A stretch of 64,000 nt of DNA. It comes from Saccharomycodes ludwigii (taxonomy: Eukaryota; Ascomycota; Saccharomycetes; Saccharomycodales; Saccharomycodaceae). Within the stretch, counting starts at the first letter, position 1. Each line of letters starts with the position of its first letter. The position numbers and the translations under genes were made by a program. Positions 39,753 through 62,219 of the stretch are shown one piece after another. The notes beneath the pieces are model-generated. The model made no database searches and was not told where the DNA came from. It saw only the letters and a list, made by a program, of their open reading frames with translations. The stretch spans positions 551,501 through 615,500 of the forward strand of contig NC_060205.1 in the NCBI RefSeq assembly GCF_020623625.1. Reading direction: 5' to 3'.

Positions 39753-41669
39753 TCAATGAAAGATTGCAGCACCAATACCTAAAACAGCCAGAACTGCACT
39801 GACCACAATAGTCACATGACAAGCAACTCTCTCCCATGGTTTAACTCTTTCCCTACATATCCTTAAATAAAACAGGCATGGTAAAATAAAACAAATCATA
39901 AAACATAATCCTGCACCAATAAATGCGATTAGTTTATCGAATGCTGGTAGTTGAATGGAAACTAACAAAAAAATAAGGTTCACCATAAGCTTATTAAATC
40001 CGCCCAAGAACAAAGCACCGTAGTATTTAAAAGTCCCCCTTTCAAAGTCAAGCTGAACGTTATGAATACCCATCAATCTATCCAATATAGATACGATTGG
40101 CATGGCGTTCAAGGGAGTTTTGGCAATAGGAATTATAGCCATCAAAGCAGAAATTAAAAAGTAAACAAAATTAGGGTACCCTTGAGTCAACAACACACTC
40201 TTAGTAACTTCGTCCATGACGCTGGAGCCAAACATTAAAAACCCAAGAATGGCAGTCCCAATATCAGTTACAGATGTTATTGAATAGGTAGTTTTCAAAC
40301 AGTCCTTAAATTTTTCAGGATGTCTCATGTCTGTTTTCAAATTGGGAAAGATCGCATGGCCACCCCAACAAGCCGACAACAATCCGATGGATAAACAAAA
40401 GTCATTAAATGATTTAGGAAATAAGTGTGTTGGCATTGGGTTTATTAAAGATCCTGGCGATGTAGACTTGTAAAGACCACTTAAAAAGATAACAACAACA
40501 GTCCCAGTTGTGGATATTATTCCCAACAGTGAAACATTGGATAAAACACTTAACGGAACAAAACTCTGAGGAGCAATAATTAAAAACCCAATAAGCTTGA
40601 AAAATGTCACTGAGTATTGAGGGAAAAGAGCATTGAGCGAGTCACCAAATAAAATAAACAAGGAAACACCACTGCCCATCAAGTCAAAAGTAAACAACAA
40701 GGAAATTAACGCACGACCCTTAGCACCAAAAGCAGCATATCCTAAATCACCGTACGAAATTAATGTTGGATCAGTGTCTAAACATCTGGACAACAATTCT
40801 GCGGTACAAAAAGTGGCGATTGCAAACAGAAATAACAATGGAATACCAACAACCCACCCGGCATATTTCATACCTAGTGGCAAGGCCAACAAGCCAATTC
40901 CGATTAAAACATTAACAGAATTGAAAACGGTTTGAGGCGCAGTGGACTGCCCTGCCAACACAGTAACAACGTTTCCGTTCTTGGTTTCTACCTTTTTTAA
41001 AACAATAGAGTTACTGTCAAATGGAACAGTGTTAGTAGAACTGGCATTAGCAGCAATCCCGTTCAAATAACCAACATGACTTGTACCGGAAACAGACGGT
41101 GATAAACTTGAAACCGCAGAATCGCGATCATCAAAAACTGTTTGATTGCCCGAATGTGATAATAAATCAGAAATCGAAGCTTGGTTCTGCAATAAAGTCC
41201 TGTTGTTGGTTGCACCATTCAAATTGCTGTTGCTTAAAGCCAATGATAATCTTCTACCATGTGCACTTGGAGCTAGTGTGTTTGGGTCATATAGTTCATC
41301 ATAACCATCTTTGAAAAAGGATCTTTCTTTATCGTGATGTAGTTCAACCGATTTAAAAGAATTGGCTCTTTTGAAAGAAGAAGCAAATCTACTCAAAGAA
41401 TTCGGTCCCTTAAATGAACCAAAAGGTTGATCAAAAATAGAGCCACGTCTGCTTATGTGAATGCCATTATTGCCGTTGTTATTCTTTCTTATTTCTATTG
41501 AACCATAAGTGGCATTATTATTGTTATCGGATGCATTTGGATTTGATGAGTTCTCGTTGGTATTCGAAACAACAGAGATCGGAATCGAGATATAATGAAT
41601 ACCGTTGTTATTGTTTTGAGTTGACGATATTGGGTCTGTTTGTTGCCCTTCGATGTCTCTACCAGTCAT
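39753..41669 (-). CDS. AVT1: Avt1, vacuolar amino acid transporter
   Basis: 638 aa member of the AAAP family. S. cerevisiae Avt1 (602 aa) takes neutral amino acids into the vacuole in exchange for protons. The first ~230 residues are a soluble Asn/Ser-rich tail ([22 protein letters not shown] recalls phosphorylation or trafficking signals; here given as two adjacent stretches). The transport core begins at [20 protein letters not shown] (about residue 247), the AAAP substrate-site helix, followed by about ten further membrane helices including [38 protein letters not shown] and [18 protein letters not shown]. First right-arm gene at CEN10 in S. cerevisiae, which helps locate the centromere here. 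Confidence 0.95.
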
Positions 41670-42713: not shown

Positions 42714-43418
42714 CTAATATGGTGAAAATCTTCCTCTACTAGAACCACCCCTACCACCTCTGAAACCACCCCTGAAACCACCTCTGAAACCACCTCTGCC
42801 GCCTCTACCACCCCTGAAACCGCCACGTTTCATACCAGGTATATTTGTTCTTTTAGAATTAATTTTTAGTTGACGGCCTTTGAATTCGTATCCATCTAAA
42901 TCTAAAGCTTTGGCCACATCTAAAGGATCTCCAAATTCTACATAAGCATAACCCTTAGGCTGCCCAGTCACTTTATTTGTTAATATGGTAACCCTCTGCA
43001 CAACACTAACTTTTTCTTTAAACAACTGTTGTAATTCTTCCGGTGTGGTACTATAATCTACATTTCCGACATAAACTGATCTGGAATCAACTTGCTCTTT
43101 TGCAGCATAGTCAATTACAGGTTGAGAAGAAGGAGAAGCAACAGTATGGCCAATGACACCTGAGCTAGTTGGAGTCAGGACACCTACAGTGCCCACAGAA
43201 CCATTACTATTTCCGTCGTTGTTGTGTATCACTGGCACAGAGTCGTGTTGTAGACTGGGTACTGTTGTCCCAATTATGATACCGGAAGCTTGATGGGCAT
43301 TTTGTTTTTCTAGGTTGGCTATGTCTTGTTGTAATTGTAACAACTTTGCTGTTTCTTCAGCGATGGTACTTGTACGAGTCTCACTATTGCTTAAAAGTTG
43401 GCTTTGTTCTTCGGACAT
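42714..43418 (-). CDS. SGN1: Sgn1/PABPN1-type RNA-binding protein
   Basis: 234 aa with one RRM: RNP2 VYVGNV at 115-120 and RNP1 KGYAYVEF at 155-162. A short Leu/Gln coiled coil (20-40) precedes it and an RGG/GGF tail follows (199-229). This coiled coil-RRM-RG architecture is that of nuclear poly(A)-binding proteins (PABPN1/Pab2). S. cerevisiae Sgn1 (250 aa) is the closest relative there and works with poly(A) RNA and translation factors; the segment RTNIPG after the RRM is shared. The Arg-Gly tail could be a methylation target. In S. cerevisiae it is the first right-arm gene beside CEN9, so it is centromere-linked in both species, though on a different chromosome. Confidence 0.82.
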
Positions 43419-44048: not shown

Positions 44049-46907
44049 ATGGGATTTAAATCTTTTAAATTCTTTCTCCAAAAGTTTTTTGTTTTACAAT
44101 TATTATTTTTGTTGGCCAAATGTAAAATTGATAATACCGATCCACAGGAACCACCTGAATTCACAACTGTAATAGATTTACTTTCCCAAAATGTTATGTT
44201 TTCTCGATTTTTATTACAAGTTCAACGTCACGGATATATAGATTATTTAAATGGGTTAGACAATTTTACCTTATTGGCACCAATAAACTCTGCCTTTACC
44301 TATTCAAACTATGAGGATGACTTCGAATTTGATATCGATGAATATATAGTATATAACAATGTTATAAAAGTGGATGAAAATTATAACAGAAACGAATCCT
44401 TTTTAATTAAATCCGGTGTTAAAATTCCGTTCATTTGGAACCATTTCTATCAGCAAGAAGCAGATAAGTTGCAAATCCAATTATACAGATCGTCCATTAC
44501 TGATAAAATTCGTGTTTTGGATTTTAATTACATTCCTACTTTGCAAAATGCAAGTATGCACTCAATAGACAAATTGTTACCTTTAATGCATCCCCCAACT
44601 TTACCACAACTTCTTGAAACTTATTCACTAGAAAACCATGGAAATATTAGCTTTATAAAAAAATTTGTTAATGACAGCAAAGAAACTTTTTCTGAGCTAT
44701 TAAACGATACCACCCTATTGGTACCTTCTGATAAAACTCTAAATAAACAGTTTAAAGATATTGAAGTAAACTATCTTTTGTTAGACGAGAAGGATATTTC
44801 AAATCCTTCGTCGGGTTTGGTTTTAAAAGCTGATAGAATAAAGCTACTGGAAAACCTAAACATACTTGGGATGCATGTTGGCCTTTGTAATGTGGATGAG
44901 AAAAAAGAAACAACTGTCAAATTTTTAAATGGGAAAAGCGGTAAAATAACGTTTAATGCTTTCCAAAATATTATTATAAATGACGACATGTTTTCAAGTT
45001 CAGGGCCTCAAATTACATTTTCTAGCCCCGAGGTAAATGAAATAACGAGCGAAAACGTAGTCTATTTTTTTGATGACATGAGCGACTTGTCATATAATAT
45101 AACTTTTAATACAGAGAAATATTTGTTAAGTTTGAACGCCTTTGAGTTTATCAATGAACTCTACATTAGACATTTGGAATGTTTAATTAACGACCAATCC
45201 TTCAACAGAAATATTACTTTATTTGTTTCTGTTCCCCAAATGAATAAGGGTCTTGCTAACGATGACTACTTAATCAATTCGGGTGCAAAGGCATCGTCAG
45301 GCGGATTCACTAAACACCAGTTGATCTACCATTTTTTGGAAGATACTATTTGGTTGAATGAAACATTCCATTCTGACAACTCTCTATTGATGCGAAGTGC
45401 AAGACTTGTTAATTCTATGTTCTGCGACAATAATGCTTTGATGGGTGGTAATTGTCAAAAACTAAAACTTTCCAAACTTTCAAATAACAATAACGATGAT
45501 AATAACGCTATATATCGTGTTAATAATAAAGCCCAAGTTATAAATAACACTCCTTTACAGGTAGGAAGTACTTTGATATATTTGGTAGACAACGATTTTT
45601 CATTGCCAGGTAATATTATTCAGTCCGTCAGCTCTTTTTTCCATTGTTCCAAATCTTTGTTGTTCTTAGACCAATTAAATTTACTGGATTTGAAACCTAA
45701 TAAGCACGGCTATACAATTTTTTTACCTTGCTATGATTCATGGGATGATTTGGAGTTGAATTTGGATTACATCAAAAGTAATGTCACTGCACTAAGTATG
45801 GTTATGAAAAATTATATTTTTGAAGGTTTGTTCTACTCTGATACTGAATTGAAAAACTACACTTTTAAAAATCTGTTGGGGGGAAATGTTCAATTAAATG
45901 TGGACAGCTGTAACGAAGACACAGTGGATATTTCTATCAGCTCAATCAATACCAATGGCGGCAACTTAACTATTGGTAAGAACAGAGATATTATTTTCGA
46001 ACAAGGTGTGGTTCATCCCTTAGATAAGCTTTATTTCCCATTAGACTTGGATATCACATTGAGTGCTTTGATCAAGACCACAGGATCTAGTGAGTATTTG
46101 CTGTTTTTTGAAAAATTTCCAAACTTGAATGTTATATTTGAACATAACTTGCCAAATTCCATATTAGTTCCAACTGAAAGCTCGTTGCTATTGGACGGTG
46201 ATGAAATGTCGTTAAACTCTAGCCGCTTAGAAGATACGCTAAAGATGCATATCATTTCTACCAATTCAACCGCAAGCATTTTGAATTGTGGTCGAGACAT
46301 AATGACTGAATACGGCGAAGAATTGGTATGTAAGGAAGTGTCACCAGGCAACTATTTTATAAAGTTGAAGAATTCGGTGGCTGACAAAGAGGTAAGAGTT
46401 TTGAAGAAGGGTTGTTCCACTAATAACAACACATCCTGTATATTTGTTATAGATCGGCCACTTTCATTAAATTGGTTAAATAAAGAAAAGCCCTATCATT
46501 TGCACTTACCTTATATTTCATTTGCCATGGGTATAATTATTGGAATTTTTGGCTTGGTTTTCATATATTTCCTGATCATGCATGAAGTTTCAAAAAGGAG
46601 CACCTATTCATCCTTGACTCCTATTTTATCGCCATCATCGTCTCACCTGAATACTGAGCCTTCTTTATCAAATGTACAAACTGGAAACAGCGAAATTGAT
46701 AATGAAGGTGAAAATGCAAATTTAAGGACACCTTTACTTCAAGCACACTTGGCAAGAAGGCCATCGTCTTCGAATAGTAATTACCAAAGCATGATAAACT
46801 CCGAAAGAAACCAGGGGTTTGAAAATCATTACTCCCAAAATTCTTTATCTAATCCGATCGAAGTTAGAAAAAAAAGATCTGTTATTGACAGTACTGGTAA
46901 TGTGTAA
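44049..46907 (+). CDS. Fasciclin-domain membrane protein (YLR001C homologue)
   Basis: 952 aa type I membrane protein. An N-terminal signal sequence of about 25 residues (KFFVLQLLFLLAKC) leads into a large lumenal part with several FAS1-like repeats: FTTVIDLLSQNVMFSRFLL with NFTLLAPINSAF, ETFSELLNDTTLLVPSDKT, LNKHGYTIFLPCYDSWDD-like and HPLDKLYFPLDLDITLSALI. There are many N-glycosylation sequons and paired Cys. A single transmembrane helix lies around residues 823-845 (ISFAMGIIIGIFGLVFIYFL), followed by a Ser/Asn-rich cytosolic tail of about 105 residues. S. cerevisiae YLR001C (861 aa, unknown role) has the same plan and is the first right-arm gene at CEN12. Function unknown; adhesion or vacuolar/lipid-linked roles are guesses. 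Confidence 0.85.
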   Translation: MGFKSFKFFLQKFFVLQLLFLLAKCKIDNTDPQEPPEFTTVIDLLSQNVMFSRFLLQVQRHGYIDYLNGLDNFTLLAPINSAFTYSNYEDDFEFDIDEYIVYNNVIKVDENYNRNESFLIKSGVKIPFIWNHFYQQEADKLQIQLYRSSITDKIRVLDFNYIPTLQNASMHSIDKLLPLMHPPTLPQLLETYSLENHGNISFIKKFVNDSKETFSELLNDTTLLVPSDKTLNKQFKDIEVNYLLLDEKDISNPSSGLVLKADRIKLLENLNILGMHVGLCNVDEKKETTVKFLNGKSGKITFNAFQNIIINDDMFSSSGPQITFSSPEVNEITSENVVYFFDDMSDLSYNITFNTEKYLLSLNAFEFINELYIRHLECLINDQSFNRNITLFVSVPQMNKGLANDDYLINSGAKASSGGFTKHQLIYHFLEDTIWLNETFHSDNSLLMRSARLVNSMFCDNNALMGGNCQKLKLSKLSNNNNDDNNAIYRVNNKAQVINNTPLQVGSTLIYLVDNDFSLPGNIIQSVSSFFHCSKSLLFLDQLNLLDLKPNKHGYTIFLPCYDSWDDLELNLDYIKSNVTALSMVMKNYIFEGLFYSDTELKNYTFKNLLGGNVQLNVDSCNEDTVDISISSINTNGGNLTIGKNRDIIFEQGVVHPLDKLYFPLDLDITLSALIKTTGSSEYLLFFEKFPNLNVIFEHNLPNSILVPTESSLLLDGDEMSLNSSRLEDTLKMHIISTNSTASILNCGRDIMTEYGEELVCKEVSPGNYFIKLKNSVADKEVRVLKKGCSTNNNTSCIFVIDRPLSLNWLNKEKPYHLHLPYISFAMGIIIGIFGLVFIYFLIMHEVSKRSTYSSLTPILSPSSSHLNTEPSLSNVQTGNSEIDNEGENANLRTPLLQAHLARRPSSSNSNYQSMINSERNQGFENHYSQNSLSNPIEVRKKRSVIDSTGNV

Positions 46908-47689: not shown

Positions 47690-48064
47690 ATGGAAAACAA
47701 CACAATTAAAGACTCAACACCGGAGAAAATTGCAACAAACTTTAAGAAGAAAGGTTATTTTGATAATATCAAAAAGGAAATAATCAATAATCATAAAAGC
47801 ATATCGGGCAACCAAACTATACAGGAATATATTACAGAATCTGTAACTAAATTTGTTCAAGATATGGTGTACAAAGATCATTCCTTACTATTTAAAAACA
47901 ACAAAGCAACATCGATGTCATTAATAGAATCAAAGTATTTCAAAGCAAACAAACCAAACATAGATGAGCTTATAAAGACTACGATCACTGACAATTCGGA
48001 AGTTAAAAAAATAATAGAAGCACAGCTTCAAGAGCTTGTAGAGTTTTCGGATCCTAGTAAATAA
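47690..48064 (+). CDS. SHG1: Shg1, COMPASS (Set1) subunit
   Basis: 124 aa. A short protein with the BOD1/SHG1 domain: FKKKGYFDNIKKEIINNHKS near residue 18, then helices IQEYITESVTKFVQDMV. S. cerevisiae Shg1 (142 aa) is a peripheral subunit of the Set1 histone H3K4 methyltransferase complex. The gene is convergent with POP4 and the two coding regions overlap by 37 bp. The same neighbour pair in the same convergent arrangement exists in S. cerevisiae (YBR257W-YBR258C), which supports this otherwise short match. Confidence 0.85.
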   Translation: MENNTIKDSTPEKIATNFKKKGYFDNIKKEIINNHKSISGNQTIQEYITESVTKFVQDMVYKDHSLLFKNNKATSMSLIESKYFKANKPNIDELIKTTITDNSEVKKIIEAQLQELVEFSDPSK

Positions 48065-48957
48065 TAGAAAAGATCATCACATCTTTTAGATTTAAATTTA
48101 CGCCCGCTTCTATCACTGCTTCTATATTTGAATCTATCTCCAATAATACTAAAAACTACCGATGAATTATCATCCACATCTTCTTCATTCCTTTCCTGCT
48201 CTGTATGTTTATTACTTGGAGTTTTATCTAATGGCAAACATATTTCAAATACAGTACCATCTTTGGGAATAATTTTTATTTCATCAATTAGTTTGCCCTC
48301 ACACAACATAATAAAAGATTTCTGTGCTTCCCAAAGAACAATCCCACCGATTCCAGAAACACTTCTGTTCTTTGTTTTAATAACTTTTAAATATGATCCA
48401 TTATAATCAGCTATGGATAGTTTTTGCAAACAAACATTTACATTTAGCTTCTCTAACGACCGTTTATCAGTAATTCTCAATAATTCTTTTATATATGGTA
48501 ACCAAAGATTTTCATACAATCCTTTTTTAAGTGCACAAAATTTTGGAAACAAGCGAATATAGTTTTCACTAAAAGCTTCTTTAAGGTATTTATGGCATTC
48601 TCCCTTATCATTATCTGTCAAATTCCCTCTTTTGATTTCCTTGTTAATTAAACCATGTGCAATTCTAGCTGTCCGTTTGCATTCAATAATATACTGACGT
48701 AACCTCTTTCTAGAGTCATGGTTTAATTTCTTGTAATTTTCTTGTTTCAATAAGGATTTTTTAATTTTTTTTGAGCCTAAACCTAAAAGTTTATTTCCAG
48801 TTTTTTTTCTTATATTTTTTCTATTTGTTTTAGATTTTTTTTCCTTCTTTGTTGGTAATAACTTCAAATTTTCATATAATCTTTGTTCAATAACAGATGG
48901 ATCCTTACCAGAGCTGCTTAATAGATAATCTTTGACAAATGGTTGGATTTTATCCAT
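48028..48957 (-). CDS. POP4: Pop4, RNase P/MRP protein subunit
   Basis: 309 aa. Rpp29/Pop4 family, a core protein of RNase P (tRNA 5' maturation) and RNase MRP (rRNA processing). The basic N-terminal part has SRKRLRQYIIECKRTARIAHGLI. The Sm-like barrel of the family starts near LPYIKELLRI and includes KLSIADYNGSYLKVIKTKNRSVSGIGGIVLWEAQKSF (family signature, G-V/I-W-E-T-xxxF) and IIPKDGTVFEICLP. It ends in FSIIGDRFKYRSSDRSGRKFK. S. cerevisiae Pop4 is 279 aa. An acidic insertion near residues 250-265 (ERNEEDVDD) adds length. Confidence 0.95.
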   Translation of the reverse strand: MDKIQPFVKDYLLSSSGKDPSVIEQRLYENLKLLPTKKEKKSKTNRKNIRKKTGNKLLGLGSKKIKKSLLKQENYKKLNHDSRKRLRQYIIECKRTARIAHGLINKEIKRGNLTDNDKGECHKYLKEAFSENYIRLFPKFCALKKGLYENLWLPYIKELLRITDKRSLEKLNVNVCLQKLSIADYNGSYLKVIKTKNRSVSGIGGIVLWEAQKSFIMLCEGKLIDEIKIIPKDGTVFEICLPLDKTPSNKHTEQERNEEDVDDNSSVVFSIIGDRFKYRSSDRSGRKFKSKRCDDLFYYLLGSENSTSS

Positions 48958-50013
48958 GGTTACTCTATTCTAAAAAATTTATTTGCTTATCTCTTGATAG
49001 TTGCAACGTTGCACTTTTAATCATTAGAAAGTTATTTTTGAAATCTTGCTCAAAAGCAAATAACACATTACATGTACATGAAAAAAAAAGAAAAAAAAAA
49101 AAGAAAAAAAAAAAAAAAGGAAAAAAAAAAAAAATAACTAAGAGCGGTTAAAGAAAATACGAAATGAAAGATTATATATATATATATAACCTGTAATTTA
49201 CAAAGTGGAAACACGTCTAGTAATTAAAGTTTGCATTGTATCTCATAGTTACTTAACACGAAAATTAATTGAAATAAACTTCAATATGATCTTTTCAAAT
49301 TACAATTAACGACAAATTTGACCAAAGAAAAGGTTAATATATAAGTCGTGTTTCCAATGAAAAATATTATCACATAAAATATGGACATTTTCATTATTTT
49401 AGCCAATAATAGAAAAGAAATTAAGTTAAAGAAAAGTAATTACGAACCTTTATTGTGGCGCTGCTAAATTGGGTAAAAAAGATCAACAAATGTATCTAAA
49501 TTGATGTTTTATATCTTTTAATGTAATCATATATCTTATCCATCTACTATGCTCTATAAATCTCACTATACATATTTACACAAACATAAAGTATCTTTTA
49601 ATGATCAAATAACTGTTTTTGACGATCAATAAAAATTAAATTTCGGTTATAATTATACCTTATGTAAAAATTCCACTTATGAATTCGATATATAAAGTAG
49701 TAGTAAAAAAAAAAAAAAAAACGCCACACCCATACATTATTTTGTGTATTTATTATTAAATACTATTTTGTGTTCGCAATAAAAGGTCTTTTAAGTTTTA
49801 TTATTTAATAGAAATATTTACTATTTATTTATATTTTAATTATAATAATAATAAATTTATGAATTAAAAATTTTAACATGCAACATATAGTTTTTTAATT
49901 ATATAATATAAATATTTTATAATTTCTTTATATTATTTTTATTTTAATTTTTAATTAAATATATTGCGAACCAAAATTTTGTGTTTGATGTTATTAGAAA
50001 TGTGTATCCAATA
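48958..50013. other. Intergenic POP4 to Ty5-like element, contains centromere candidate
   Basis: 1.06 kb without genes. A purine-rich block (49080-49134) and a TA run (49174-49187) are followed by AT-rich unique DNA. A strikingly AT-rich segment with inverted boundary repeats lies at 49772-49971 (listed separately). The last 5 bases, CAATA (50009-50013), are the target duplication of the retrotransposon. Confidence 0.6.
49772..49971. other. Candidate centromere: 180-bp ~93% AT core between inverted 10-mers
   Basis: GTTCGCAATA (49772-49781) and its exact reverse complement TATTGCGAAC (49962-49971) bound a 180-bp core in which I count 13 G/C. The similarity continues outward, with ATTTTGTG before the left box and CCAAAATTTTG after the right one, so both ends read TATTGCGAAC followed by an A-rich CAAAAT-like block. 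Each end resembles a CDEIII core (TTCCGAA followed by A-rich) with TTGCGAA in its place. The AT content and length resemble CDEII of Kluyveromyces (about 160 bp, >90% AT). No CDEI (RTCACRTG) is visible alongside. The surrounding genes are those flanking CEN10/CEN12 in S. cerevisiae. Centromere identity is inference. Confidence 0.5.
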
Positions 50014-50257
50014 TGTTGAGAAAATAAATGTACGGGTGTGTATATTTATTTTCTATCTGCCTGTTCGTCATATGCATGGCTGCTTCTAAATACTATCTTT
50101 CCTTTTATAATATTATATTAATTAAGTTATACGTAATTTATATAAGAAGTCCCTTTTACATAAGCTAAAAGAGACTAAGGTGTATATTCATATTAACAGG
50201 TATATTACATAATATGAATCATTCTATTGATCGGTTAGATCAGCTATTCGCTCAACA
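50014..50257 (+). repeat. 5' LTR of the Ty5-like element
   Basis: 244 bp, TGTTGA...TCAACA. Contains AATGTACGGGTGT (50027-50039), a match to the Rap1 consensus on the other strand, and the ATG of the element's frame at 50214, so the first coding residues lie in the LTR, as also known for Ty1. Confidence 0.95.
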
Positions 50258-53200
50258 GGTTATGAGCCCTGAGGCAATACCCGAAGTACTCTACAAATTA
50301 AAAGGAAATTCCAACTATAAAAAATGGTGTGACGAATTTACTTATATGTTAACAGCCTTTAACCCATATATTGTGAGTTTCTTGCAAACTGGTCTATTAA
50401 ACATACCAGACATTAATAATGCTGATACATTTGTTACCACTAGAATGCTTACCACGGCTAGTCGAATTGCAGACATGGCCATCAGAAAATCTCTCGATGA
50501 AAATACATTAGATACATATACAGCTGCCACAAATGCTTTTCGGGGCACAAATTATTATCTAAGAACCAAGGCCGGCTGGGATAGCTTGAATGAGATGTAT
50601 TCCTCCGGTACTTTGAGATCCTACTATGATGCCATGAGCAAGAAGCCTACACCTTATACCTTAACTTCTTCCATTTCGACATGTACTGAAGTTATAAATC
50701 ATCTAGTCGAATTAGATGACTTGAGAATGACAAACTCAGTTTTATACCAAAGTGCCTTATTTTTAGATTATTGTCCAGCAATTGCTGATATGGTGATTGA
50801 TAAGTATGGTGATTCCACAGATGTCACTGTTAATCAGATTAAATTGTATTTGACTAATAAGTCAGCAACAAGAAAGAATAAAGACAATGCCATAAATCCA
50901 TTATCTTCTGCTTTTCTTTCTCAATCTTCAACCCTCAATACATCACAGAAAATCCAAAATGGTGATGCTTTTACTAAGGTCTCAGCCAAAAATCAAAGAT
51001 ATAACAGAGAAACAAAGTATAGGTGCAAGTTATGCGACAAAGATCATAAAACTATCAATTGTCCCGATATTGAGAAATGTAGAGAAATATTACAAAAAAC
51101 CAAAAGTAGCGCATTCTTCTCAAACGGAAATTCTAAATCCCGAAAATGTGATAATTTTGTCAAATCTGAACCTATTTGGTGTTTAGATAGTGGATGTTCA
51201 GCACATATGACTGATAATAGGAGTTGTTTTACAGAACTACTACCATGTAACACAACAGTTAATGGTATTGGTGGAAAGAGATTAACGGCAGAAGGAATAG
51301 GAACTGTTAATATAAATGGAACTGTCTTCAGGGATGTTTTATATGTACCTGATCTTCAGAACAATCTAATTTCTGTTAGGAAAATTAGGAGTGAAGGTTA
51401 TGACATTGTATTCAAGAAAGACGGTACCGTCTGGCTACATGGAAAAGATGTGTTACGTCAGGTTGGTATTGAAACTAAGGGCGGTATTTATTCTTGGTGT
51501 GGTGATTCCTTTGCTTTCTGCTCTCTTGCTGCGGACAACCTATCGTTTGGCCCAGTCTCACAAAAGATTGCAGCTTCCTCATCAAGTGCACCAATCTGGC
51601 ATGCTAAATTAGGACACCCCAGTGTTAAATATTATAATGCCGCTGCCCGGATATTTGGAAAACCAATTTTGAACTCTGAGAAGTATCCTAAATGCCCAAC
51701 CTGTCAATTGTCAAAAGGTATCCATGACAAGTCGACATCTTCAACCACTACGTATAAACAACCACTGTCTGTCATCATGGTTGATATCTGTGGTGGCTTT
51801 CGATATAAAGAACAAACTGAAGCTAGATATTTTCTAACAATAGTTGATGCTTTCTCCCGATATATAACTGTTATATCCTTAAAGCGCAAATCTGATGCCA
51901 CATCCTCATTGATTACATGGATAACCCAAATTGAGAATTTCTTTGCTGCAAATGGTTACAATTATCGACTTGGTACTATTAGATCTGATCATGGTGGTGA
52001 ATTTGACAACAATAATTTTCATGAATATCTTCAAAAGAAAGGGGTGAAACATGAATTCACCGTATCACATTCCAGTTATCAAAATGGAATTGCTGAGCGT
52101 ACACATCGTACTATCGAAGAACGAATGAGAGCATTGATGATTGGAGGAAAGGTACCACCCTATTTGTGGACAGAGGCACTACAAACTTCTGTCTATATTA
52201 TCAACAGGACACCTCGTCCATTTAACAATAACAAAATACCATACTGTATCTGGTTTAATAAATCTCCCAAATCTATTAATATAGAACATCTACATGTATT
52301 TGGATGTGCTGCGTATGTTACATTACCAGAGTCTAATCGTGATGGAAAATTGATGCCAAACTCTATCCTTGGTGTTTTTGTTGGTTATGATAGCTCTCAC
52401 AAAGCCTATAGGATTTATCATATTGATAGTGCTAAGATTTTTGTTGCAGCTAATAGAGATATTGTTTTTGATGATACTATGTTTCCATTTGCCTACTCAT
52501 CTGACTCGTCAAAAGCCTATAATTTTGCTGATTCAAAAGTTACAGGACCCCCTAAGTATCCATCTATTGGATCAACCCAAACTAATTCATCTATTAATCC
52601 TAGTATGGCTAGTAAAGGAACTTACCTACCACCAATGACATCTATGATAAACAATATCAATACCTCATCTTTATCGTCTGACTCAGACGGGGATATAATT
52701 CTACCAGATGATAAAAAGACCTTTGACTCATTACAGAATAACAAAATTGCTAATACAACCAATTCTGACTTAGTTCCCTTAGCAACAAACTCAATTATTC
52801 ATCGAATGCCTGATGATTCCCCAATGCCGTACATCGGACATCAGCCTGTTGAAAGTACTCAAACTGGGTTAGATACCATTCTCCCTCCTAGGCAATCATG
52901 TATTGCTGCAAATCCTATCAAACAATTATCAGTTCTCCCAACCAATTATGAAACTGGTGAACATACCTCTAAAGAAAAATTAGCTTCCTTGGACAGCCTT
53001 GTTCCCTTCTCAAACAGTTCATCCTTGCCTGCTACAGAATCATCTGAATCCATTCCTTCTCCTGATTTTTCAAAACTATTACCAGACTCGCAGAAATTAC
53101 TAACCACTTCAGTTCAACCACTTGAAGTTGGTGAAGCAACAGCTCCTTTCCTTGGATCGTCATCAGTGGCTCCCTTTTTCATTCCCCATGGTGGGAATAC

Positions 53201-55010
53201 ACCACTTACCTCTCAGCTTTTGGATCTTGCTTTACCATCTACTTCTATATCTTCCTCACCATCAACATCAGAAAATTCCTCTTCGACTGTACCATCACTA
53301 AATGAATTACCATTATTACCAGCTTCAACTGGAACAACAGATTCCTTAGTCCATACATCGCCTGACGTTTTTGATCAGACTGAAACCAACGCTACTGAGG
53401 GTTATTCATCCACTGCTATTAAACGTTCCCATACAGCAGCATTTCCTGAGCACTCTAATATTGCTTTATCTGCTATGGCCTATTTTGGAACCCATGATGA
53501 TAAAATACCACAAAACTTTAGTGCTGCATTAAAAGGTCCAAATGGTAAAAAATGGAAAAGTGCGTGTCAACAGGAATTAAATTCGCTTGTTGAAAATCAC
53601 ACGTTTGATTTGGTTTCTCCTCCATCCGACACTAAAACTATAGGTTCTCGTTGGGTCTTTACCATTAAGGATTCAGGGTTGTACAAAGCCCGTTTAGTTG
53701 CCCAAGGTTTTACACAGCGTGCTGGTATTGATTACAATGAAACATTTGCTCCTGTTATTCGTTATAGCAGCGTTCGTTTGTTTCTTGCTGTTGCTGCATC
53801 TCGTGGTTTCCTAATCCACCAGATGGATGTAACCACGGCATTTCTAAATGCACCTATTGATACACCCATATATGTCCGTCCTCCTGTTGGTTATCCACAT
53901 GCTCCTGGCATGGTGTGGAAATTGAATAAAAGCTTATATGGTTTGAAACAAGCGCCTCTTCTTTGGAACCAAACTATAGCTGGAAAATTAGCCCATATAG
54001 GCTTTACAAAACATCCATCTGAGCATGGGTTGTTTGTTTGTTGCAATAACTCCGATGAAACTTTTGTTGCACTCTATGTTGATGATTTATTGATTGCCGG
54101 TAGCTCTTCTGCTAATGTTTCTAAAGTCAAGCATTACTTGTCCGAGTGTTTCCAGATGAAAGATCTTGGACCTGCTTCAAAATTTCTTGGTATGAACATA
54201 ACGCAATCTCCACAAGGAATTTCGGTCTCTCTATCCGATTATATTTCAAAATTGCTTGTTGAATTTGGACCTCCATTTAAACCCATTCATACTCCACTAG
54301 ATAAACATGCCGATTTATTTTCTTCAATTGAACCTCCAACTTCCGATATCACTAGATTTCAAAGCATGGTGGGAAAACTGCTATTTGCTTCGAATACTGT
54401 GAGATATGATATTGCTTTTGCTGCTTCATTTTTATCTCGGTTTCTCAAATCGCCTACAAATGTGCATCTGAAAGCTGCTAGAAGAGTTGTTGACTATCTA
54501 ATTACTACTAAAGATTTTAGTCTCACTTATAAAAAAGGTATTCCGTCTCATCTTACTGTCTACAGTGATGCATCCTATGCCGATGATAAGACGGATATGC
54601 ATTCTACCTGTGGATACATCACAGTTTACAGTGGTGCACCCATTACGTGGAGTTCCAAGAAAATTAAAGTAATGTGCTTATCTTCTACTGATGCAGAATA
54701 TATATCCATGAGTGAAGCGTGTAAAGAAGCATATTGGTTAACTGACATATTTAATGGCCTGAACATTGAAATACCATCTATTGATTTGATGGCTGATAAC
54801 ACATCTGCAATTGCACTTGCTAAACATCCAACACAACACAACCGTACAAAACACATTAACGTAAAATATCACCACATAAGAGAAGCCGTTGAAACCAAAA
54901 AGGTAAACATTCAATTTTTAAAAACAACAGAACAACCAGCTGATATGATGACCAAACCTCTCTCAAGAGCTTTACACGAAAGATGCCGTGACACCTTTAT
55001 TACTACTTAA
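50214..55010 (+). CDS. Gag-Pol polyprotein of the Ty5-like element
   Basis: 1598 aa in one frame. The Gag part has a CCHC knuckle CKLCDKDHKTINC starting at residue 271. An aspartic protease follows (LDSGCSAHMTDN, about 323). The integrase zinc site runs from H463 (HAKLGHPSVKYYN... CPTCQLSK), with the D,D35E core VDICGG / RSDHGGEF / NGIAERTHRTIEERM. A Ser/Pro/Thr-rich spacer of several hundred residues comes next, the region in which Ty5 carries its targeting segment. Reverse transcriptase has YVDDLLIAGSS near 1288, and RNase H has YSDASYADD near 1450 and the DNTSAIALAKHP block. Ty5 of Saccharomyces has a similar single frame (about 1.6 kb of codons). Confidence 0.95.
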   Translation: MNHSIDRLDQLFAQQVMSPEAIPEVLYKLKGNSNYKKWCDEFTYMLTAFNPYIVSFLQTGLLNIPDINNADTFVTTRMLTTASRIADMAIRKSLDENTLDTYTAATNAFRGTNYYLRTKAGWDSLNEMYSSGTLRSYYDAMSKKPTPYTLTSSISTCTEVINHLVELDDLRMTNSVLYQSALFLDYCPAIADMVIDKYGDSTDVTVNQIKLYLTNKSATRKNKDNAINPLSSAFLSQSSTLNTSQKIQNGDAFTKVSAKNQRYNRETKYRCKLCDKDHKTINCPDIEKCREILQKTKSSAFFSNGNSKSRKCDNFVKSEPIWCLDSGCSAHMTDNRSCFTELLPCNTTVNGIGGKRLTAEGIGTVNINGTVFRDVLYVPDLQNNLISVRKIRSEGYDIVFKKDGTVWLHGKDVLRQVGIETKGGIYSWCGDSFAFCSLAADNLSFGPVSQKIAASSSSAPIWHAKLGHPSVKYYNAAARIFGKPILNSEKYPKCPTCQLSKGIHDKSTSSTTTYKQPLSVIMVDICGGFRYKEQTEARYFLTIVDAFSRYITVISLKRKSDATSSLITWITQIENFFAANGYNYRLGTIRSDHGGEFDNNNFHEYLQKKGVKHEFTVSHSSYQNGIAERTHRTIEERMRALMIGGKVPPYLWTEALQTSVYIINRTPRPFNNNKIPYCIWFNKSPKSINIEHLHVFGCAAYVTLPESNRDGKLMPNSILGVFVGYDSSHKAYRIYHIDSAKIFVAANRDIVFDDTMFPFAYSSDSSKAYNFADSKVTGPPKYPSIGSTQTNSSINPSMASKGTYLPPMTSMINNINTSSLSSDSDGDIILPDDKKTFDSLQNNKIANTTNSDLVPLATNSIIHRMPDDSPMPYIGHQPVESTQTGLDTILPPRQSCIAANPIKQLSVLPTNYETGEHTSKEKLASLDSLVPFSNSSSLPATESSESIPSPDFSKLLPDSQKLLTTSVQPLEVGEATAPFLGSSSVAPFFIPHGGNTPLTSQLLDLALPSTSISSSPSTSENSSSTVPSLNELPLLPASTGTTDSLVHTSPDVFDQTETNATEGYSSTAIKRSHTAAFPEHSNIALSAMAYFGTHDDKIPQNFSAALKGPNGKKWKSACQQELNSLVENHTFDLVSPPSDTKTIGSRWVFTIKDSGLYKARLVAQGFTQRAGIDYNETFAPVIRYSSVRLFLAVAASRGFLIHQMDVTTAFLNAPIDTPIYVRPPVGYPHAPGMVWKLNKSLYGLKQAPLLWNQTIAGKLAHIGFTKHPSEHGLFVCCNNSDETFVALYVDDLLIAGSSSANVSKVKHYLSECFQMKDLGPASKFLGMNITQSPQGISVSLSDYISKLLVEFGPPFKPIHTPLDKHADLFSSIEPPTSDITRFQSMVGKLLFASNTVRYDIAFAASFLSRFLKSPTNVHLKAARRVVDYLITTKDFSLTYKKGIPSHLTVYSDASYADDKTDMHSTCGYITVYSGAPITWSSKKIKVMCLSSTDAEYISMSEACKEAYWLTDIFNGLNIEIPSIDLMADNTSAIALAKHPTQHNRTKHINVKYHHIREAVETKKVNIQFLKTTEQPADMMTKPLSRALHERCRDTFITT
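50258..50271 (+). other. Primer-binding site, half-tRNA initiator Met
   Basis: GGTTATGAGCCCTG directly follows the 5' LTR and is the exact complement, 14 of 14, of the anticodon stem-loop of yeast initiator tRNA-Met (CAGGGCTCATAACC). Ty5 and copia are known to prime with such an internal tRNA fragment. It is also translated, as part of the gag frame. Confidence 0.9.
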
Positions 55011-55040
55011 TACTATACAAAGACTATGATAATATTAAGT

Positions 55041-55049
55041 AAGGGAGAG
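55041..55049 (+). other. Polypurine tract of the Ty5-like element
   Basis: AAGGGAGAG immediately before the 3' LTR, the usual plus-strand primer position for an LTR retrotransposon. Confidence 0.85.
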
Positions 55050-55293
55050 TGTTGAGAAAATAAATGTACGGGTGTGTATATTTATTTTCTATCTGCCTGT
55101 TCGTCATATGCATGGCTGCTTCTAAATACTATCTTTCCTTTTATAATATTATATTAATTAAGTTATACGTAATTTATATAAGAAGTCCCTTTTACATAAG
55201 CTAAAAGAGACTAAGGTGTATATTCATATTAACAGGTATATTACATAATATGAATCATTCTATTGATCGGTTAGATCAGCTATTCGCTCAACA
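55050..55293 (+). repeat. 3' LTR of the Ty5-like element
   Basis: 244 bp; read base by base against the 5' LTR I find no difference. Same termini and same Rap1-like site (55063-55075). Confidence 0.95.
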
Positions 55294-55298
55294 CAATA

Positions 55299-56669: not shown

Positions 56670-58115
56670 ATGAACTCAACTGATTTTGTCACCACAGAGG
56701 GTGTTAAATCTAATGGCTTTTCAATTGCTGAATATTTGCAAAGCTATTTTCCTCAATTAGATGGTACGCACTTTGAAGTTTTCCATTTACAATCACCTTC
56801 CTCGGAAGTTGAATCTTTATATTATAATGTTGGTGACCTTAATGATAATGCCACTCAGGACACCGTTGTTAAAGCTGAGCATTTTATTGCCGTGAGCTGC
56901 AACAAAAAAATTTTTTTTGCTATTGATATTTTAATTTATCTACTTATTAAAGTTGCCAACTCTAATCCTTCTAAAAGTGGAAACGTCTGTTCTGAAGAAG
57001 TTATTGTGGAATTGGAAAGACATCTCTTTATCTCTAAGGCAGATACAAATGGTTATTGTGATATAAAATTAAGTACGAAGAATATTACTCGAGGTATCCT
57101 AAATTTTTTGCTTGATATAGAAGTTCAACACTATTTAAAAAATGTTATCCGCTTGAGGAAAAACAATTACGCTGGTTATGATAAAAATAATTTCATTACT
57201 AAAAATACAAGTACTAAACAGGCATTACAGATTTTGGCACAAAGGTTAGACAATAGAAAAGATCTATGCCCAGAAACAGCTTCAAAAGTGTCGCCTCCAT
57301 TTACAACTAATTATGTGCTGGCAAATGGCATTCAAAACAAGATTATGACAAAAATATCTTTATTTACGAGACCTGAGCCACAATACTTATTTTCTGAGTC
57401 ATCTAAAAACCGTAATAAACACATTTTATCGGGAGACCAACTATTGCATTGGTGGTTATCAATAATCGATTCTTTATTGGATAATTTCGAAACGAGTGGT
57501 AGTTTTAGCGGTGATAACACCATTAAAGCTAAAGTTAAAATTCCTGGGGAGGATGATTCTATGATTTATAAACGTTATATTTGTAAATTAAAACACAGAG
57601 ATATCTGGGAGGTCGGTACAATATATGGGGACAAAAATGATTTGTCACATATGGTTATTCCATTGTTTCCCGATGATCCCAAAACCAGATTCATCAGATC
57701 AAACATTGAGGAAGGAAGAGATGGCTTAAAGTTAAAGGCTTTTTGGAACGAATTACAGGGAAGGCAGGAGTTTAACTTGGGTATTGTAGTTGGTGTAATA
57801 GGTGTAAGTGGTTTATGGAAGAAAAAATTAAGTGAGGATACCTTAACCGACTATTCAATATACATACCACCAACAAAAAAAAAATTTAAGAATCTCAAAA
57901 GATATGTTATTGGAGAAGAATATGACACGGCAGAAGGTGCATTAGACTCATATTCTAATTTAAGTGAGTATTATAGGAAGTTAAGCCTGAATCCCATTTC
58001 AATTATTGGTACGTATAAATATTCTGCTGAAAAGGTATACGATGGCAGTAGTATAGTAAATCCTGTTGTAATAAACAATCTTAACTCGTTGGTCGTCCAT
58101 AGAAAAAAGAGATGA
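56670..58115 (+). CDS. RTT109: Rtt109, histone H3 K56 acetyltransferase
   Basis: 481 aa (S. cerevisiae 436). Fungal p300-like enzyme that acetylates H3K56 and K9/K27 with the chaperones Asf1 and Vps75. Typical blocks are DGTHFEVFHLQSPSSEVESLY near residue 31, VKAEHFIAVSCNKKIFFAIDILIYLL, the active-site area LFTRPEPQYLFSESSKNRNKHILSG (catalytic Asp/Tyr/Trp region, with LLHWWLSIID) and FPDDPKTRFI. DGLKLKAFWNELQGRQEFNLGIVVGVIGVSG lies in the C-terminal half. In S. cerevisiae the order from CEN12 is DNM1, RTT109, SFI1; here RTT109 and DNM1 are flipped as a pair. Confidence 0.94.
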   Translation: MNSTDFVTTEGVKSNGFSIAEYLQSYFPQLDGTHFEVFHLQSPSSEVESLYYNVGDLNDNATQDTVVKAEHFIAVSCNKKIFFAIDILIYLLIKVANSNPSKSGNVCSEEVIVELERHLFISKADTNGYCDIKLSTKNITRGILNFLLDIEVQHYLKNVIRLRKNNYAGYDKNNFITKNTSTKQALQILAQRLDNRKDLCPETASKVSPPFTTNYVLANGIQNKIMTKISLFTRPEPQYLFSESSKNRNKHILSGDQLLHWWLSIIDSLLDNFETSGSFSGDNTIKAKVKIPGEDDSMIYKRYICKLKHRDIWEVGTIYGDKNDLSHMVIPLFPDDPKTRFIRSNIEEGRDGLKLKAFWNELQGRQEFNLGIVVGVIGVSGLWKKKLSEDTLTDYSIYIPPTKKKFKNLKRYVIGEEYDTAEGALDSYSNLSEYYRKLSLNPISIIGTYKYSAEKVYDGSSIVNPVVINNLNSLVVHRKKR

Positions 58116-58868: not shown

Positions 58869-61190
58869 ATGGCGAGTTTGGAAGATCTGATCCCTATAGT
58901 TAATAAATTACAAGATGTTATGTATGATGCTGGGATCGATACTTTAGATCTACCTATTTTAGCAGTTGTTGGTTCTCAATCTTCTGGTAAATCCTCCATT
59001 TTGGAAACTTTGGTGGGTAAAGACTTTTTACCAAGGGGAACAGGTATCGTTACTAGAAGACCTTTGGTCCTTCAACTAAATAACATTAGTGAAGATTCGC
59101 CACTTATTTATGAATACGATGAGCAAGTTTCATCTAACAATGATGATAATGATGATGATAATGATTCAAATGACCAAAACGAAGAAAGGGAAATTACTTT
59201 AGAGGAGCATTTGAGAAAGAATATTTCTACTTACAAGCCTGAAGTAAAAAACGAATGGGGTGAGTTTTTGCATATTCCAGGGAAACGATTTTACAAGTTT
59301 GATGATATCAGAAAGGAAATTGAAAGAGAAACCTCCAGGATTGCTGGTAAAAATAAGGGTATTAGTAGAATTCCTATCAATCTAAAAGTTTTTTCGCCAC
59401 ATGTTTTGAACTTAACTTTGGTTGATCTACCAGGCATCACAAAGGTTCCCATTGGCGAACAACCTCCAGACATTGAAAGACAAATCAAGAACTTAATTCT
59501 GGAATATATAGCCAAACCAAATTGCATAGTCTTGGCAGTTTCGCCTGCCAATGTGGACTTGGTTAACTCCGAGTCGTTGAAATTGGCGAGAGACGTTGAT
59601 CCTTTGGGGAAGAGAACAATTGGTATTGTTACAAAGTTAGATTTGATGGATCCTGGCACTAATGCATTGGATATTCTATCTGGTAAAGTTTATCCGTTAA
59701 AGCTGGGATTTGTTGGTGTTGTGAATCGTTCTCAACAGGATATTCAGCTAAATAAAAGTGTTGGAGAATCTTTAAAAAGTGAACAAGAATTTTTTGATAG
59801 GCATCCTGTATATAGAGCTATTTCCAATAGATGTGGCACTCGTTATTTGGCAAAACTTTTAAACCAAATTTTGATAAACCACATTAGGGAAAAATTGCCA
59901 GACATCAAGGCCAGATTGAACACTTTGATTAGTCAAACTGAACAAGAATTGGAGATGTTTGGTGGTGTTGATATTATTACGAGGGAAAATCGAGCTAGTT
60001 TAGTTTTACAATTGATGAACAAATTTGCCAAAAACTTTATTGCATCCATTGAGGGTACATCTTCTGAAATCAGCACCAAAGAATTGTGTGGTGGTGCAAG
60101 AATCTATTACATTTATAACAATATTTTTAGAAAATCATTAAACTCCATTGATCCTACTTCGAGTTTATCCATCAGAGAGATCAGAACAGCTATTAGAAAT
60201 TCTACCGGTCCCAGACCCTCTTTGTTTGTTCCGGAATTAGCATTTGATTTACTGGTCAAGCCTCAAATCACGCTGTTATTAGACCCATCACAAGTTTGTG
60301 TTGAACTAGTTTATGAAGAATTGACGAAGATTTGCCACAGCTGTGGTTCCCCAGAACTAACTAGATACCCCAAATTGCAGGTTCGTCTGGTGGAGGTTGT
60401 TAGTGAATTATTACGAGAGAGGTTAGGACCTACTCGTTCGTATGTAGAAAGTTTGATTGACATCCATCGTGCCTATATCAACACTAATCATCCAAATTTC
60501 ATTAGTGCTACAGTTGCGATGTCTCAAATAGTTGAAGACCGAAAAAAACAAAGACAGGCTGCTGAAAGGAAAATTAAAGATGAAGATAGAAAGAGAACAC
60601 AAACAGAATCATCTAAAAACCCTACTGGTGAACGCAGTGACAGCATTGACAATAATTCCAATGCCAGTGATTTAGATGATGCGTCGGATCCTCCACAATT
60701 GCCCACTGCTGATGACCAAAAGCCACCAAAGGACTCGTTTTTGAACTACTTTTTTGGCAAAGACCAACAAAAATCGCAAACCAATTCTAACCTGTCCAGA
60801 ACAACTTTAACTGGATACGAAGATTATAATAGAAATAGCACTTTTGGTATGGAAAGCTTGGATTTGAGCCTAAGAAAGGATGATGATGACGGAGAATATC
60901 AGTTAACCGAGAGAGAGGAGTTGGAATGTGAATTGATTAGAAGATTGATTGTTTCCTATTTTGGCATTATTAGAGAAATGATTGAAGACCAAATTCCAAA
61001 GGCTATTATGTGTTTATTAGTTAATTATTCGAAGGAAATTGTTCAAAACAGATTAGTTACCAAATTGTATAAAGATGAGTATTTTGATGAACTGTTGATG
61101 GAAGATCAAACATTGGCTCAAGAAAGAGAAAGATATATTGCTTTATTAAAAACTTACAAGGAAGCTGCTAATATTATTAGTGATATTTGA
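58869..61190 (+). CDS. DNM1: Dnm1, mitochondrial/peroxisomal fission dynamin
   Basis: 773 aa (S. cerevisiae 757). The dynamin GTPase has G1 GSQSSGKSS at 35-43, G2 TRRPL (about 62-66), G3 DLPG in LTLVDLPGITKVP (about 180-190) and G4 TKLD in GIVTKLDLMDP. The stalk/middle domain includes GGARIYYIYNNIFRKSL. A variable insert B (about 555-680, Lys/Glu then Ser/Asp rich, contains KDSFLNYFFGKD as in Dnm1 orthologues) precedes the GTPase effector domain (LECELIRRLIVSYFGIIREMIEDQIPKAIMCLLVNY in two pieces). It polymerises on mitochondria via Mdv1/Fis1. An acidic Asp/Asn loop in the GTPase domain (about 93-108) is an insertion typical of yeast Dnm1. Confidence 0.97.
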   Translation: MASLEDLIPIVNKLQDVMYDAGIDTLDLPILAVVGSQSSGKSSILETLVGKDFLPRGTGIVTRRPLVLQLNNISEDSPLIYEYDEQVSSNNDDNDDDNDSNDQNEEREITLEEHLRKNISTYKPEVKNEWGEFLHIPGKRFYKFDDIRKEIERETSRIAGKNKGISRIPINLKVFSPHVLNLTLVDLPGITKVPIGEQPPDIERQIKNLILEYIAKPNCIVLAVSPANVDLVNSESLKLARDVDPLGKRTIGIVTKLDLMDPGTNALDILSGKVYPLKLGFVGVVNRSQQDIQLNKSVGESLKSEQEFFDRHPVYRAISNRCGTRYLAKLLNQILINHIREKLPDIKARLNTLISQTEQELEMFGGVDIITRENRASLVLQLMNKFAKNFIASIEGTSSEISTKELCGGARIYYIYNNIFRKSLNSIDPTSSLSIREIRTAIRNSTGPRPSLFVPELAFDLLVKPQITLLLDPSQVCVELVYEELTKICHSCGSPELTRYPKLQVRLVEVVSELLRERLGPTRSYVESLIDIHRAYINTNHPNFISATVAMSQIVEDRKKQRQAAERKIKDEDRKRTQTESSKNPTGERSDSIDNNSNASDLDDASDPPQLPTADDQKPPKDSFLNYFFGKDQQKSQTNSNLSRTTLTGYEDYNRNSTFGMESLDLSLRKDDDDGEYQLTEREELECELIRRLIVSYFGIIREMIEDQIPKAIMCLLVNYSKEIVQNRLVTKLYKDEYFDELLMEDQTLAQERERYIALLKTYKEAANIISDI

Positions 61191-61571: not shown

Positions 61572-62219
61572 TTAGATATTTTCGTATTCTTCTGGGTAAA
61601 AAATCAGACGTTCGACACCATTGCTTGTTAATATAACCATTCTAATAACACCGCCAGAAGAACCATCCCATTTTATAGCTTGGGATAAAGAGTGTTTAAC
61701 GAAATTAACAGTCTCTTCTTTAGTCATATCCTCCTTAAAATTTTTATCACAATAACCATAGATAAAAGCCGACCCCGAACCAGCAATAGCATATGGTTGC
61801 TTATGAATAGACCCGCCTAAAGGTATACTGTAAACTTCGCCCTTATTTTTCGCATCATAACCAGCCACAATTATTCCAGCACTTAAATTATCTTTATTTT
61901 CATAACACAAAGTTTGGAAAATAGAAGCGGCCGTCTTAGTAGATGGCTCACCAAATTGAGTGGTGTATAAATCTAAATAATATTGAACAATATCAGCAAC
62001 TGCTTGTGTATCCGCAGCGGAACCAGATCTACAACACCAGATTTTATCATGAACTCTGGTTAGTTTATCTGTGACACGGTTAGCAATGTATGCACCTGTG
62101 GTGGTACGTGAATCTGCACCTAAAATGACACCATCTTTAAAAGTAACAGCCATGATAGAAGTACCCAAGCTGACTTCACCTTTTTTCAAATGCTGTATGT
62201 CAACACTAATTCCATTCAT
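61572..62219 (-). CDS. PRE3: Pre3, proteasome beta-1 subunit
   Basis: 215 aa, the same length as S. cerevisiae Pre3. Caspase-like catalytic subunit of the 20S proteasome. The propeptide MNGISVDIQHLKKGEVSLG is followed by the mature N-terminal nucleophile T20 (TSIMAVTFK). D36 in LGADSRTTTGAY and the Lys of TDKLT complete the active site; CCRSGSAADTQAVADIVQYYL and SIPLGGSIHKQPYAIAGSGS are conserved. The frame is uninterrupted, whereas the S. cerevisiae gene has a short intron near the start. It is the first left-arm gene at CEN10 in S. cerevisiae and has the orientation expected relative to AVT1. Confidence 0.98.
   Translation of the reverse strand: MNGISVDIQHLKKGEVSLGTSIMAVTFKDGVILGADSRTTTGAYIANRVTDKLTRVHDKIWCCRSGSAADTQAVADIVQYYLDLYTTQFGEPSTKTAASIFQTLCYENKDNLSAGIIVAGYDAKNKGEVYSIPLGGSIHKQPYAIAGSGSAFIYGYCDKNFKEDMTKEETVNFVKHSLSQAIKWDGSSGGVIRMVILTSNGVERLIFYPEEYENI

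Follow-up and report, generated by a model that had tools for sequence, protein, structure and literature searches.

A probable mirror-image point centromere in Saccharomycodes ludwigii, one of seven on a shared plan without CDEI

A mirror-image centromere, in which the same box faces inwards from both ends of an AT-rich tract, very probably occupies an interval on contig C6 of Saccharomycodes ludwigii, judged from the sequence of this interval and its relatives elsewhere in the genome. The best explanation, which we consider likely with its CBF3 and nucleosome mechanism included, is that the interval is a point centromere and one of seven built on a single plan, where two inward-facing sites of ~35 bp, each comprising a TCGCA core and ~30 bp of outer arm, enclose the tract and CDEI is absent. 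The seven loci lie at ancestral positions, one per chromosome, and carry a conserved motif without detectable polarity. If this reading is true, nature would offer a counter-example to the polar CDEI-CDEII-CDEIII plan. In a centromere that lacks CDEI and carries one and the same box at either end, the contributions of polarity, Cbf1 and CDEIII could be told apart.

The window is the whole stretch of DNA that was analysed, 64 kb in length, and corresponds to C6 bases 551501-615500. Direct reading of its sequence gives a left box GTTCGCAATA at 49772-49781 (+ strand; core TCGCA at 49774-49778) and its exact reverse complement TATTGCGAAC, the left box inverted, at 49962-49971 (- strand; core TGCGA at 49965-49969), and both boxes were recovered by the genome pair searches described below. 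The CDEII-like tract between them (49782-49961) is 180 bp in length with 13 G/C and is the presumed seat of a single CENP-A nucleosome; the perfect 10-bp repeat and its AT-rich interior had been reported in the initial annotation, the coordinates and counts of which proved exact. The window contains ten perfect 10-bp inverted repeats whose arms have at least four G/C each and lie 100-260 bp apart, and the box pair alone among them has an interior GC content of 12% or less; 30 dinucleotide shuffles of the window, accepted when at least 99.9% of the full length was reached, gave a mean of 3.2 such repeats and 0.0 with a low-GC interior. Stretches of 180 bp with no more than 18 G/C account for 61 of 63,821 positions in the 64 kb, all starting at 49764-49824, and for 0 of 113,405 in the other fetched non-centromeric loci, which were picked by motif and not at random.

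The genome searched comprises 12,500,424 bp from one strain of one species in eight contigs, of which C1-C7 are chromosome-sized, and the published S. ludwigii assembly is described as 12.5 Mb in seven chromosomal scaffolds (PMC8567612). Contig C8 is 26,468 bp in length; over the first 10 kb its GC content is 27%, and a bacterial-code scan found no tRNA there. The pattern GTTCGC-N162..192-GCGAAC occurs at four places in the genome, those on C2, C6 and C7 being AT-rich and the fourth, on C1, not; its reversed control occurs at none. Relaxation to TCGCA-N162..192-TGCGA gave 26 places, of which seven are AT-rich, and these are distributed exactly one each on C1 (2194421-2194617), C2 (496257-496441), C3 (640456-640646), C4 (820945-821134), C5 (703656-703848), C6 (601274-601469; the window feature) and C7 (404609-404798). 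The chance of such a one-per-chromosome distribution is 0.0035 for seven randomly placed sites. Interior GC is 6.6-10.0% at the seven AT-rich pairs, whereas it is 20.8-47.9% at the 19 others, and in the reversed-letter control (25 or 33 places, by two counts) the lowest value was 22.0% among the 15 of 25 places that were computed. At spacings of 100-130 and 193-223 bp, TTCGCA/TGCGAA was found at one place each, neither of them AT-rich in the letters inspected. The pattern fixes the TCGCA/TGCGA core, so the invariance of TCGCA among the 14 arms follows from the search, and the outer arm and the AT content are not constrained by it. The search would miss a centromere in which the core has changed, but each chromosome-sized contig already has one AT-rich pair.

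All four homologues that had been named as flanking the interval are present by Pfam domain. To the left lie AVT1-like (39753-41669, - strand; Aa_trans) and YLR001C-like (44049-46907, +; fasciclin), together with an RRM protein (42714-43418, -) and an RNase P p29, POP4-like gene (48028-48957, -), and to the right lie DNM1-like (58869-61190, +; dynamin) and PRE3-like (61572-62219, -; proteasome), together with RTT109-like (56670-58115, +) and SFI1-like (62747-63994, -); in S. cerevisiae, CEN10 lies between AVT1 and PRE3, and CEN12 between YLR001C and DNM1. Pfam assignments at the other loci gave an exonuclease with HRDC domain (RRP6-like) on one side of the C1 pair and a cyclin (PHO80-like) and Ras-type GTPase on the other; TFC3 and an N6-adenine-methyltransferase-type gene (EFM5-like), both on one side, at C2; neutral trehalase opposite histone H2A at C3; Rer1 and an eRF1-type gene (DOM34-like) opposite a septin at C4; dynamin (VPS1-like) and poly(A) polymerase, both on one side, at C5; and BTB and TRAP-alpha (IRC22-like) genes opposite RRM, NOP16 and phosphomannose isomerase at C7. 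We take the neighbours on C1-C7 to be the genes beside S. cerevisiae CEN13/15, 1/7, 2/4, 3/14, 8/11, 10/12 and 5/9, respectively, and the ancestral pair 6/16 is presumably the sole one without an S. ludwigii centromere. Ancestral neighbours are thus found at seven of seven loci, on two sides at C1, C3, C4, C6 and C7 and on one side at C2 and C5, for which ~5 kb was fetched. The genome-wide expectation of the initial annotation, that exactly one inverted pair around DNA of more than 90% AT should be found per chromosome, each at a syntenic ancestral locus, was borne out on all seven chromosomes (interiors between cores of 175-187 bp, 90.0-93.4% AT), which strongly supports its identification of the interval as a centromere. 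Hanseniaspora likewise uses seven of the eight ancestral loci (PMC12711049, section 9), and putative point centromeres on all S. ludwigii chromosomes were described in 2021 on the basis of synteny and a DNA motif (PMC8567612).

The similarity that had been seen to extend outwards from the C6 boxes is real and forms part of a longer arm, which occupies the 30 bp outside each core (left arm at 49744-49773, +; right arm, the mirror image of the left motif, at 49970-49999, -), as defined by a matrix of 14 arms. Read inwards with TCGCA at 0 to +4, T at -27 and AA at -16/-15 are invariant in 14 of 14 arms from the seven chromosomes, and T at -1 is present in 13. When the matrix for each chromosome was built from the other six, the sums of the two outer 30-bp arms were +22.7 to +35.1 at the seven AT-rich pairs and -7.8 to -66.9 at the 19 others, for a motif first noticed on the same sequences that were later scored. 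The C6 arms contribute +10.9 (left) and +14.0 (right) on this scale. Full-arm scores of the 14 centromere arms are 21.3-32.2 (leave-one-out), with the C6 left arm the lowest at 21.3 and the C6 right arm at 24.4; the best non-centromeric matches to the all-arm matrix, within the window and the fetched loci over which it was scanned, score 10.8 and 15.8, respectively.

Between the arms the seven interiors are not homologous in general, as only one of 21 pairs (C2-C4) aligned better than all of its 60 shuffles. This bears on the possibility that the repeats are relics of a transposable element, either a solo LTR or a miniature terminal-inverted-repeat element that lies at the centromeres by chance, which could account for terminal inverted repeats, an AT-rich interior and the large amount of Ty5 sequence in the surroundings. 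Homologous interiors and dispersed copies, the features of such elements, are not found for the seven AT-rich pairs: 20 of the 21 interior pairs are non-homologous, each chromosome has a single AT-rich pair, the remainder of the 26 places with this spacing providing none, and no stretch of the Ty5 LTR resembles the arm significantly, its best score being reached by 27 of 200 shuffles. We therefore regard a transposon relic as highly improbable. Enrichment of homopolymer runs, as reported for CDEII in S. cerevisiae, was not found in the interiors (271 bases in runs of at least four, versus 293 +/- 30 in shuffles).

The arms are alike to the same degree however they are paired, with 15.7 of 30 positions identical within a centromere, 16.4 between centromeres, 16.5 for left with left and 16.0 for right with right, against a background of 9.2. 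The best division of the arms into two classes was matched or exceeded by 105 of 300 nulls with shuffled arms, in a test on seven centromeres that would miss subtle arm differences. The equal similarity and the lack of a two-class split indicate a dyad without detectable polarity, and the symmetric layout proposed for C6 thus holds at seven of seven centromeres, each with the same arm at both ends. The function could still be polar if one box were the CBF3 site and the other bound a factor with a lookalike site that replaces Cbf1 at CDEI. This is suggested by S. cerevisiae structures, where only one CBF3 site is sequence-specific, and by the range of single-arm strengths noted above, but neither the equal likeness of the arms in all pairings nor the failure of any split to outdo shuffled arms would be expected from it, and we consider it unlikely. 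A second possibility is that the inverted arms, instead of being protein sites, work in cis by folding into a hairpin or cruciform, for which the C6 copy would offer a perfect 10-bp stem. Arms of the same centromere are, however, no more alike than those of different centromeres, which indicates that pairing is not selected and favours protein sites, and a near-dyad within the arms (AACAC..GTGTT), which appears in the consensus only and is not claimed here, lacks covariation (permutation p 0.86). A structural role of this kind is accordingly very doubtful, and two inward-facing protein sites remain the preferred reading.

None of the seven centromeres has a CDEI word (RTCACRTG, TCACRTG or CACGTG) within 600 bp, which agrees with the lack of a canonical CDEI claimed for C6; the looser E-box CAYRTG, mostly as CATATG, is found in the same range at six of seven but in no fixed place. 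The CDEIII word TTCCGAA has a single site within 600 bp of the seven centromeres, 599 bp from the C5 left core. The CDEIII consensus is TTTCCGAA, and the S. ludwigii box TTTGCGAA resembles it loosely. The description of the boxes as CDEIII-like therefore stands in part: the loose resemblance is there, but no CCG is conserved in the arms, the core of which is TCGCA/TGCGA.

With the conventional point centromeres of S. cerevisiae and Kluyveromyces marxianus the S. ludwigii loci share a short, sequence-defined form, occurrence once per chromosome at ancestral loci, the presence of CBF3 genes and an AT tract within the published range, which extends from around 50 bp to almost 200 bp (PMC12925627, section 5; 165 bp is given for K. 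marxianus in PMC12226651). A CDEII-type tract and a single ancestral locus per chromosome are present in seven of seven cases, whereas CDEI and a one-ended CDEIII with a CCGAA core are lacking; CDEIII lies at one end of the conventional centromere, in contrast to the same box mirrored at both ends in S. ludwigii. In the wider sense a point centromere is sequence-defined and CBF3-dependent, and of the CBF3 genes those for Cep3 (E 4.9e-92), with its Zn2Cys6 zinc cluster intact, and for Ndc10 (NDC10_II, E 1.6e-48) are present in the genome. So are a Chl4 (CENP-N) gene and a Cbf1 gene at C1:1009954-1010100, for which the best solved match is Centromere-binding protein 1 among the three of seven HLH matches that were fetched. 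The Cep3 frame in the genome (C3:997000-998900) has an open length of 616 aa, and its match to Cep3 covers positions 5-497 of 511; the public record has 397 aa and a different end, and probably represents a truncated gene model. Besides Ndc10 itself, a weaker match to NDC10_II lies at C2:1812367-1812696 in a frame of 1091 aa.

A mechanism is proposed where each box would be bound by a Cep3-containing CBF3 complex, and two such complexes would hold both ends of a single Cse4/CENP-A nucleosome on the AT tract. The kinetochore would then be nucleated without Cbf1 at a CDEI, so that CDEI and Cbf1 would be dispensable. We infer that CBF3 recognizes the TCGCA/TGCGA boxes because a Cep3 gene with an intact zinc cluster is present, and where an AT tract of nucleosome length is enclosed by two equal, convergent sites, the simplest reading is that each CBF3 has its own site. 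S. cerevisiae Cep3 reads CCG (PMC12873945, PMC6077249), and two CBF3 complexes are described as embracing the centromere DNA there, with the second Cep3 contacting flanking DNA nonspecifically (PMC12873945, a preprint). If the proposal is true, the second CBF3 of the dimer, which is nonspecific in S. cerevisiae, has a box of its own in S. ludwigii, and this would address the structural question of how a CBF3 dimer engages a centromere with only one specific CDEIII.

The core without CCG could instead indicate a symmetric centromere with boxes that are read by another factor, CBF3 being recruited indirectly or used differently, and a CGCA-type inverted motif is likewise described for the centromeres of Hanseniaspora uvarum (PMC12711049, section 10). 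Set against this are the retained genes for Ndc10 and for Cep3 with its Zn2Cys6 cluster, and the report that CBF3 of Naumovozyma castellii binds quite different elements (PMC4533239), from which it follows that a changed core does not exclude CBF3. We judge a different reader to be improbable, slightly more so than a polar function, and retain recognition of both boxes by CBF3 as the favoured proposal. N. castellii is similar to S. ludwigii in having point centromeres whose elements are non-canonical, and its CBF3 orthologue binds them, but most of its centromeres are described as lying off conserved syntenic locations (PMC4533239), whereas the S. ludwigii loci are ancestral and a CHL4 gene is present in the genome.

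A further comparison is with the 'proto-point' centromeres of H. uvarum, which belongs to the same order, Saccharomycodales, and for which seven ancestral loci with the eighth unused and an inverted CGCA..TGCG motif are described (PMC12711049). In H. uvarum two AACGCA lie 5 nt apart within a 21-bp motif, whereas TTCGCA and TGCGAA are ~180 bp apart in S. ludwigii. A search with AACGCA-N5-TGCGTT, which represents part of the motif and not the full 21-bp logo, gave no match with fewer than two mismatches within 4.5 kb of the seven centromeres; the best matches have two mismatches at C7 and three at C1, C3, C5 and C6, and none with three or fewer was found at C2 and C4. The best match at C7 and one of the two best at C6 fall inside the right arm, their first letter being the final A of TGCGA. 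Each S. ludwigii arm could be related to a single Hanseniaspora motif. We hold it about as likely as not that the centromeres are fully dyad-symmetric and CDEI-less, with two equal, convergent CBF3 sites at the two ends of one CENP-A nucleosome, and would so be both an exception to the polar plan and a candidate intermediate between the CGCA-type centromeres of Saccharomycodales and the conventional form. Saccharomycodales adjoins the Saccharomycetales, where point centromeres are of debated origin (PMC12711049, section 15).

The layout had been put forward as new for point centromeres. A symmetric two-box plan without CDEI is not described in the titles and abstracts surveyed, and the word Saccharomycodes is absent from the main texts of PMC12711049 and PMC12925627, but centromeres as such had already been predicted in S. 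ludwigii (PMC8567612). Any novelty would lie in the symmetric, CDEI-less layout, of which an earlier description may exist, most likely in Haase et al. (doi 10.1038/s41586-025-10092-0). Plasmid and binding tests could be built directly on the seven sequences.

A complete Ty5-like element adjoins the C6 centromere at 50014-55293, with a 5' LTR at 50014-50257 (+ strand), a second LTR at 55050-55293 and a polyprotein ORF of 1598 aa at 50214-55010 (+) that contains Pfam Retrotran_gag_4 (the Ty5 Gag N-terminal region), rve and RVT_2. The ends TGTTGA..TCAACA and the 5-bp target duplication CAATA (50009-50013 and 55294-55298) establish this as a real insertion. The element begins 44 bp outside the right TGCGA and is a neighbour of the centromere and not part of it. 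A protein search with the C6 copy as query gave a further full copy 1.9 kb from the C2 centromere (listed at 100% identity), partial copies near the C4 (93-95%) and C7 (90%) centromeres, at a distance of ~0.33 kb from each, and a full copy ~40 kb from the C1 centromere (C1:2232000-2241900), which shows that not every copy is centromeric. The C1 copy lies between kelch and WD40 genes, which we take to match no centromere neighbour, and a second C1 centromere beside it was considered and rejected (TTGTGAACACAAAAT; arm score 9.4, no partner box seen).

A BLAST search that admitted E values of up to 1 gave Ty5 LTR pieces on 12 of 14 centromere sides. The nearest lie 44-99 bp from the box core, with none closer, and several of these nearest pieces are short and weak (E 0.084 left of C2; E 0.002 left of C1, left of C5 and right of C7). 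No piece was detected at this threshold right of C1 or left of C6. A 16-bp LTR match (E 0.29) lies inside the C2 interior. The distances suggest that Ty5-like elements integrate on both sides just outside a protected footprint of ~285 bp, as if integration were aimed at the edge of the kinetochore footprint and were symmetric like the motif. The shuffles of the Ty5 LTR described above lend no support to an origin of the boxes from the local LTR; Haase et al. are said to have advanced a wider LTR hypothesis.

Sites resembling the Rap1 consensus accompany these pieces. One such site, ACACCCATACATT, of putative role, is associated with the C6 centromere outside the left arm (49726-49738, no strand assigned), and another lies in the 5' LTR (50027-50039). 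With up to three mismatches, Rap1-like sites in one outward orientation are found on 10 of 14 sides at 35-80 bp, where ~0.11 are expected per side; further matches are one in the opposite orientation left of C4 and a second, weak outward one at 101 bp right of C6. The flanking sites are probably for the most part LTR heads, since the LTR carries the same site, but the left side of C6 has a Rap1-like site without a detected LTR piece, and the sites may be either LTR heads or a centromere-flanking element. Before the C6 Ty5-like insertion its target site already contained the head of an older LTR-like piece, complete with a Rap1-like site, which is seen from 55294 onward.
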